Part shown: in pieces, positions 9,183 through 51,876 of the stretch
Layout: the number at the start of each line of letters is the position of its first letter
Position numbering within the stretch: position 1 is the first letter of the stretch
Made by a program: the position numbers and the translations under genes
Notes under the pieces: model-generated
Databases searched by the model: none
What the model was told of the DNA's origin: nothing
The model's input: the letters and a program-made list of their open reading frames with translations, nothing else
From: Candidatus Nanopelagicales bacterium
Lineage (GTDB): Bacteria > Actinomycetota > Actinomycetes > S36-B12 > CAIYMF01
Length of the DNA stretch: 64,000 bases
NCBI GenBank assembly: GCA_017848795.1
Contig: JAFIHG010000050.1
Location: 1 to 64,000 of the forward strand
Direction of reading: 5' to 3'

Positions 9183-9488
9183 GTGACCGGTGCCGTGGTG
9201 ATCCCGCTGTCGCTGGTGTTCGTCGGCATCCTGGTGCTGCTGTTGCGCTGGACGTACAGCACCGGCCATTCGGTGGTGGCGCGGCGGCCGCGTCCGGGCC
9301 ACCAGGACGAGTACGGCCTGCTGGTCGCCGTGTCGGACCCGGCGACGTACATCGAGGGTGAGATGCAGCGCCAGACGCTCGAGGCGTCGGGCATCCGCGC
9401 CACGCTGGCGCAGACCCTCGACGGACCGCGCCTCATGGTGTTCCGGCACGACCGCGAACGCGCCCGCGCCCTGCTCCGCGTCCGCTGA
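9183..9488 (+). CDS. Small membrane-anchored protein, DUF2007-like tail
   Basis: A ~101-residue protein with one N-terminal transmembrane helix (VVIPLSLVFVGILVLLLRW) and a ~60-residue soluble tail (YGLLVAVSDPATYIEGEMQ, then RERARALL at the end) resembling the alpha-beta fold of DUF2007 putative signal-transducing proteins. Function unknown. The start is uncertain: GTG at 9183 places the helix at the N-terminus, but GTG at 9147 is in frame too; neither has a convincing ribosome site. It is divergent from the 3-hydroxybutyryl-CoA dehydrogenase gene and followed by a repeat-rich spacer. Confidence 0.6.
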   Translation: MTGAVVIPLSLVFVGILVLLLRWTYSTGHSVVARRPRPGHQDEYGLLVAVSDPATYIEGEMQRQTLEASGIRATLAQTLDGPRLMVFRHDRERARALLRVR

Positions 9489-51001: not shown

Positions 51002-51376
51002 TCACCGTGCGCCGAGTTCGTCCGCGGTCCCGACGAGCACTCCCGGCACCTCCTCACACGCCCGCGCGGCCACCTGCCGCCACCACCGGGCAGTCAGGTG
51101 TGCGGCATCCGGCCGGGCCGCATGCAGGTCCGCATCCGACCGATACACCACGACCGCGGGATCACGCATGTCGCACAGCGCGGCGACCAGCTCCCCGACC
51201 GCCCGCGCCGTGTCGTCCTCGACCTGCTCGACTTCGAGCCGTACCCGCTCCGGGATCGGCTCCCTGCCCGACTCCCACGATCGGAGCGTGCGCGGATTCA
51301 CCTGCAGCATCCCGGCGAGCGCGTCCCCGGACAGTCCCAGGTACTCGCGGACCATCTGCAGCTCGCCGCCGGTCAT
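51002..51376 (-). CDS. XRE-type regulator, leftward, coupled to the RAMP-like gene
   Basis: A 124-residue protein. N-terminal HTH (GELQMVREYLGLSGDALAGMLQVNPRTLRSWESGREPIPERVRLEVEQ), then a conserved C-terminal part (DPAVVVYRSDADLHAARPD, ARWWRQVAARACEEVPGVLV) that I associate with a family of actinobacterial/phage regulators. ATG overlaps the stop of the RAMP-like gene by 4 nt (ATGA), so both are translated from one leftward message. Orientation against the lytic operon suggests expression in the lysogen. Confidence 0.78.
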   Translation of the reverse strand: MTGGELQMVREYLGLSGDALAGMLQVNPRTLRSWESGREPIPERVRLEVEQVEDDTARAVGELVAALCDMRDPAVVVYRSDADLHAARPDAAHLTARWWRQVAARACEEVPGVLVGTADELGAR

Positions 51377-51678
51377 GCCTCAGTCCCCTGCGTCCAGCTG
51401 GACGCAGGGGGCGGCCACAGCAGGTCCACGGCAGCCTTGGACAGGGAGCCGTCCGCGACTCCGACGGTGCGGACCGCGTGCCAGGCGAGCGCGTCGCGCA
51501 GCTGGTGGCGCAGCGAGTTCCCGGACACGTACGGCACGGATGCGTGTCGGCCGTCCGGGGTGATGATGTCCTGCGCGCGCAGCAGCGATGTATTCCCGGC
51601 TGTACCGGCGCCGTGGTGCAGCGGACTGGTGAGGGTGGCGGCGGTGGAGTCTGGTCCCGCGCCCGCATCCGCGTCCAC
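51373..51678 (-). CDS. RAMP/Cas7-like protein, N-terminal half only
   Basis: A 101-residue protein from GTG 51678 (start uncertain, no good ribosome site). Its core reads TLTSPLHHGAGTAGNTSLLRAQ and VPYVSGNSLRHQLRDALAWH: a Pro-Leu-His-x-Gly-x-Gly strand followed by a Gly-x-Ser-Leu-Arg-x-x-Leu-Arg helix, the order seen in RAMP-fold Cas7-type proteins. It stops shortly after DGSLSKAAVDLLW, where full-length members should continue for another 150-200 residues, so it looks truncated by a deletion fusing it to the XRE gene. No cas genes or repeats are nearby. Family assignment by eye only. Confidence 0.5.
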   Translation of the reverse strand: MDADAGAGPDSTAATLTSPLHHGAGTAGNTSLLRAQDIITPDGRHASVPYVSGNSLRHQLRDALAWHAVRTVGVADGSLSKAAVDLLWPPPASSWTQGTEA

Positions 51679-51693
51679 GAACTCGCGACGGAC

Positions 51694-51876
51694 GTGGGCG
51701 ATGCCGAGTGGGAGTGCGCCTACTACCCGGATATGGGGCAGGCGCTCAACGCGGCCAAAGCATCCGCGACCGCCGACCCGGACGACGGCGACCTGACCTG
51801 CAGCGAATGCGACGGCCACGGCACGCGGGTACGCCGCGACGGCCTCGAAGTCCCCTGCAAGGAGTGCGAGGAATGA
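51694..51876 (+). CDS. Small DnaJ-type zinc-finger protein
   Basis: A ~60-residue protein ending in CSECDGHGTRVRRDGLEVPCKEC, a pair of CxxC motifs as in DnaJ zinc fingers, preceded by YYPDMGQALNAAKASATADPDD. The start is uncertain (GTG 51694; in-frame GTGs also at 51613/51616 but those overlap the RAMP-like gene antisense). ATGA overlap with the RusA gene. Probably a metal-binding adaptor; function unknown. Confidence 0.55.
   Translation: MGDAEWECAYYPDMGQALNAAKASATADPDDGDLTCSECDGHGTRVRRDGLEVPCKECEE

Follow-up and report, generated by a model that had tools for sequence, protein, structure and literature searches.

The locus lies in a prophage on a 64,000-nt contig segment (the window, that is, the whole stretch of DNA that was analysed) of a Candidatus Nanopelagicales bacterium, among + strand early phage genes for an exonuclease, ERF, RusA, WhiB and replication initiation, with terminase and portal genes following. 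Genes of this strand run on at both sides of the locus, and the minus-strand pair at its centre opposes the lytic operon, as the original prediction had described. The features are as follows.

51002-51376, minus strand: Aca2/YdiL-like XRE regulator, 124 aa (PF08965, 35.1 bits against a cut-off of 23.8, residues 1-105)
51373-51678, minus strand: 101-aa open reading frame (ORF) with a GTG start and no Shine-Dalgarno match upstream
51376-51414, minus strand: 13 non-csf2 codons (PPPASSWTQGTEA) forming the end of this ORF, a read-through of the 26-bp palindrome and its flanks
51385-51410: perfect 26-bp palindrome CCCCTGCGTCCAGCTGGACGCAGGGG, 8 bp before the XRE start codon
51415-51642, minus strand: 5' fragment of csf2 (type IV Cas7), about codons 7-82 of about 284, native start codon lost
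51640-51738, + strand: 3' fragment of cysH, the C-terminal ~33 codons of a type IV-B CysH-like protein
51694-51876, + strand: 'zinc-finger' ORF, the cysH tail running on into a CXXC-rich tail, with GTG 51694 as the first usable start past the junction

The 101-residue product carries the PLHHGAG and SGNSLRHQLR motifs from which a Cas7/RAMP protein had been predicted, and the profile search proposed at the time bore this out. Residues 13-89 matched positions 11-84 of 280 in the PADLOC typeIV_Cas7 profile (PDLC01572) with an E-value of 1.9e-30, whereas other Cas7 models reached 1e-4 or worse. A csf2 profile built from 13 relatives matched the fragment within the 64-kb window at E 2.6e-36, and a six-sequence profile (A3) had one match in the whole genome, the fragment itself, at E 6.1e-38; matches of this strength rule out a chance resemblance to type IV Cas7. 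Matches to Pfam DevR (E 6.5e-4, under the curated cut-off) and to NCBIfam Csf2 (weak, under its cut-off) were also recorded. The phage family phrog_22746 (304 aa, unknown function) was matched over the same residues 13-89 at E 6e-13; its profile, unlike the fragment, is full length, and by this evidence it would be a type IV Cas7 (Csf2)-like family. At the nucleotide level, blastn of 51301-51760 against the relatives gave 79% identity to the csf2 gene of relative L002 over 223 bp. By homology, the ORF is thus identified as containing a csf2 remnant.

The predicted truncation was likewise upheld. The csf2 homology begins at about codon 7 and ends after the conserved VDLLW (51415), so that the piece lies within the first ~82 of ~284 Csf2 positions and some 75-76 codons survive. 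Compared with Csf2 of type IV-B systems (PDB 7jhy; PDLC01572), the fragment retains nearly all invariant residues; some 70% of the Csf2 length, the start codon and the remaining genes of the ribonucleoprotein are gone; the complete RRM palm and thumb of a 280-340-aa Csf2 are absent, and the lone piece has no predicted fold of this kind. Profile searches for remnants of csf1, csf3, cas11 and cas6 in the window gave nothing above noise, so that of the csf1, cas11, csf2, csf3 and cysH set that makes up a type IV-B locus only fragments of csf2 and cysH are present. The genome contains no csf1 (protein query), no further csf2 and no remainder of csf2 (profile A3). The host genome also contains no Cas1, a gene found in only 1 of 17 genomes of the family.

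Type IV-B-like operons around full-length relatives

Close csf2 relatives were collected from six viral contigs and four GTDB genomes (Phytoactinopolyspora and three Corynebacterium), and distant ones from Skermania phage SPI1, Rhodococcus and Xylanimonas plasmids and three further class genomes, one of which apparently represents the Phytoactinopolyspora locus again; tblastx comparisons of L030-L032 were left out of the evidence as GC-rich noise. The relatives read are full length, about 280-340 aa, and every one sits in a type IV-B-like operon (csf1-cas11-csf2-csf3, usually with cysH and often with cas6) carried by actinobacterial phages, prophages and, in one case, a plasmid. Ten loci contain csf1, cas11 and csf3 around csf2, nine of them also cysH, and seven a Cas6e-like gene. 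The system is accordingly type IV-B-like and phage-borne. Type IV loci are known from prophages (PMC11656645). The suggestion of a stand-alone Cas7-like phage protein is therefore wrong. The assignment agrees with structure comparison: the AlphaFold model of full-length L002 Csf2 matched type IV-A Csf2 chains at E 2e-11 and the type IV-B Csf2 7jhy at E 4e-7, and the A3 profile found 7jhy among PDB sequences at E 2e-19.

Type IV-B has been described as devoid of a crRNA-processing enzyme (PMC8175902). Intact phage or prophage loci with csf1, cas11, csf2, csf3 and cysH together with a Cas6e-like gene were seen in L002/L017 (4.2-8.5 kb), L003, L004, L018, L019, L020 and L030, and the Cas6e-like genes matched PF08798 with E-values of 1e-13 to 1e-20 in the four tested. 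No convincing CRISPR array was found within ~6 kb on each side of the six loci scanned (L002, L003, L006 and L018-L020). Downstream of the type IV locus in L019, a 21-nt G-rich direct repeat occurs four times at a spacing of 23-34 nt (9310-9411); an ordinary CRISPR array would have longer and more regular repeats. Visual inspection of the reading frames suggests DNA methyltransferase-like genes next to csf3/cysH in L018 (7333-8253), L019 (7992-8960), L002 (8.5-9.5 kb) and L020 (7358-8215), and it is possible that they are part of the type IV-B-like system.

A cysH fragment on the opposite strand

The original prediction placed no cas genes near the ORF, a statement that has to be revised since a cysH tail abuts it on the + strand. 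The tail shares 20 of 32 amino acids with the L030 CysH (GGGVWSRARIRVHELATDVGDAEWECAYYPDM versus GGGTWDRGRLRVHALRTEVGDEVWERRYWPDM), and the cysH profile found its best match in the window here (E 9.7e-6), compared with 0.74 for the next match and 0.047 for the best of 12 shuffled windows. In the same blastn comparison of 51301-51760, the end of L002 cysH aligned with positions 51703-51734 (+) at 87.5% identity over 32 nt, and L023 cysH matched 51651-51738. The cysH piece starts at 51640, exactly where the csf2 homology on the minus strand ends (contact zone 51637-51643), and the sequence on both sides of this junction is coding in phase. In the relatives, csf2 and cysH lie on a common strand with csf3 between them. 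A search of phage DNA for an empty site or a rearrangement intermediate gave no match.

Within 51694-51876, a DnaJ-like CXXC-rich tail stands in frame with the cysH remnant (PF00684, a weak match at E 0.0095, under the cut-off). The resulting 'zinc-finger' ORF may encode a new small zinc protein or have no function; the sole candidate relative, in L014, proved to be a chance match.

The Aca2-like regulator and the palindrome

The XRE gene, whose predicted 4-nt overlap with the 101-aa ORF is present as ATGA at 51373-51376, belongs by its full-domain, above-cut-off PF08965 match to the Aca2 family, and the four best PDB sequence matches of its product are all Aca2. The palindrome is the longest in the window, where simulations gave an expectation of 0 at such a length, and no other site in the genome comes within 3 mismatches of it. 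Palindromes in their own promoters are the binding sites of Aca proteins, which makes autorepression likely here: by analogy, the palindrome is a likely candidate operator of the Aca2-like gene, and the regulator probably represses itself through it. The gene resembles known Aca2 systems in its match over the length of the family, its PDB matches and the palindrome before its start; it differs from them in that the acr is only putative and the palindrome lies between fragment and regulator rather than in a promoter ahead of the acr.

The genes of the Aca2-like relatives share no palindrome sequence at their starts, and the relative in phage Gilgamesh has a different, 10-bp inverted repeat. The relatives in Streptomyces, Mycobacterium and Thermobifida phages and in one viral contig have no recognised cas gene beside them. 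The proposed look for a full-length version next to the same XRE gene led to full-length csf2 relatives, and no XRE relative adjoined csf2 in the other genomes and contigs examined. The Aca2-like family is known from varied contexts (PMC8434428), and only about 3% of its proteins have an upstream acr gene (PMC9410906), so that the presence of the regulator lends weak support to an anti-CRISPR association.

Decay or retained function of the csf2 fragment

We consider the feature, with a probability of about 0.72, to be the decayed and rearranged remains of a type IV-B-like CRISPR-Cas locus borne by a phage, beside an autoregulated Aca2-like gene. An inversion with breakpoints at the csf2 start and inside cysH would have put the two pieces on opposite strands, and a subsequent deletion would have taken csf3, the bulk of cysH and the remainder of csf2, placing the Aca2-like gene directly downstream of the csf2 piece; such a sequence of events would account for the opposite-strand junction. 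The living minus-strand unit would then be the Aca2-like regulator.

The initiation signals of the fragment fit this reading. Where L002 has the native ATG of csf2, the fragment has GCG, and GTG 51678, its sole nearby in-frame start, has no Shine-Dalgarno match. A scan for sigma-70-type promoters, which actinobacterial promoters may escape, found none for the fragment or a leader. The piece is predicted to contain a beta-hairpin and the first long helix, the remaining strands of the RRM core being absent. Modelled alone, it reached a pLDDT of 65.5 and a pTM of 0.41, with residues 8-27 and 93-101 below 50; the model contains no ferredoxin core, and a PDB fold search with it returned nothing at E<=0.001. 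Of the two findings on which the Cas7 reading had been staked, the profile match is therefore strong and the ferredoxin-like core is missing from the fragment alone, while full-length relatives do match solved Csf2 structures.

Other properties count against decay. The fragment has no internal stop or frameshift, and GC by codon phase is coding-like in its frame across 51400-51640. It keeps 18 of the 19 positions that are invariant among nine csf2 relatives (counted without the L002 row, which is misaligned by its 5' extension), the exception being a conservative F to Y, and it shares the ATGA overlap typical of operon partners. Differences from L002 fall mostly on third codon positions (13/8/25 by position), which together with the absence of stops fits either recent truncation or retained function; residue conservation is equally expected after recent truncation. 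Evidence for decay comes from the two broken ends of csf2, the missing start signals, the incomplete fold, the broken cysH at the junction, the lack of csf1 and Cas1 in the genome and the lack of a second truncated copy in the data searched: close relatives in viral contigs, GTDB genomes and 394 class genomes included none, and four weak class-genome matches at profile positions 190-265 sit in long frames. We conclude that a working protein is probably not produced from the csf2 piece. Of the two options originally put forward, decay is thus the better one, the sole positive evidence for a decoy being the Aca2-like neighbour and the retained conserved residues.

A Cas-derived anti-CRISPR, in which the N-terminal Csf2 piece, co-expressed with the Aca2-like autorepressor, would act as a dead subunit that enters or blocks the Cas7 filaments of class 1 complexes, type IV or other, belonging to hosts or to competing elements, is rather unlikely. 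In addition to the conserved residues, the directly downstream Aca2-like gene, the ATGA overlap and the palindrome speak for it, and there is a precedent in the Cas-homologous AcrIB3, a Cas5 mimic, and AcrIB4, a 9 kDa protein homologous to the Cas8b C-terminus (PMC13131331). Like these, the fragment is a small phage-encoded piece homologous to a class 1 effector subunit; unlike them, its inhibitor role is putative, it has no known cognate system in the host, and no short intact version of it was found in other phages. The palindrome moreover follows the putative acr, whereas an acr-aca operon has its inverted-repeat operator in the promoter ahead of acr. The small acr-linked share of Aca2-like proteins, the different location of their relatives in actinophages, the loss of the native start, the missing Shine-Dalgarno match and the poor predicted folding of the fragment, the absence of Cas1 from the host and its scarcity in the family, and the adjoining cysH tail, which argues for breakage, all weigh in the same direction. 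According to a 2024 review, viruses have apparently made no broad use of Cas proteins as inhibitors (PMC11656645). It is unlikely that a type IV-B Cas7, cut down to its N-terminal quarter, became a short anti-CRISPR with which the phage poisons the type IV complexes of rival phages or plasmids, controlled by an Aca2-like autorepressor whose palindromic site separates the two genes.

A leader role is distinctly unlikely. Translation of the csf2-derived ORF through the palindrome would open an RNA hairpin holding the AGGGG ribosome site of the Aca2-like gene, the remnant being kept as a coupling leader and the Aca2-like protein binding the hairpin. Indeed, the ORF passes through the palindrome and ends in ATGA, a 91-nt transcript around the palindrome folds strongly (z -5.05), and one arm holds the AGGGG that precedes the start codon; against this, Aca2-like relatives have no conserved palindrome at their starts, neither a promoter nor a start signal was found for such a leader, and comparative support is lacking. 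An assembly or library artefact is very improbable: inverted junctions and palindromes are typical of chimeric reads and no second example of the locus turned up in the genomes searched, yet same-strand early phage genes flank it on both sides and both sides of the junction are coding in phase.

Read as a decayed locus, the feature would be a snapshot of the breakdown of a phage-borne type IV-B locus that leaves Cas fragments beside Aca-type regulators, and such breakdown is one plausible route to Cas-derived anti-CRISPRs. The intact phage-borne type IV loci of Corynebacterium and other Actinomycetota, with cysH and cas6 and no visible array, bear on what type IV-B systems do.
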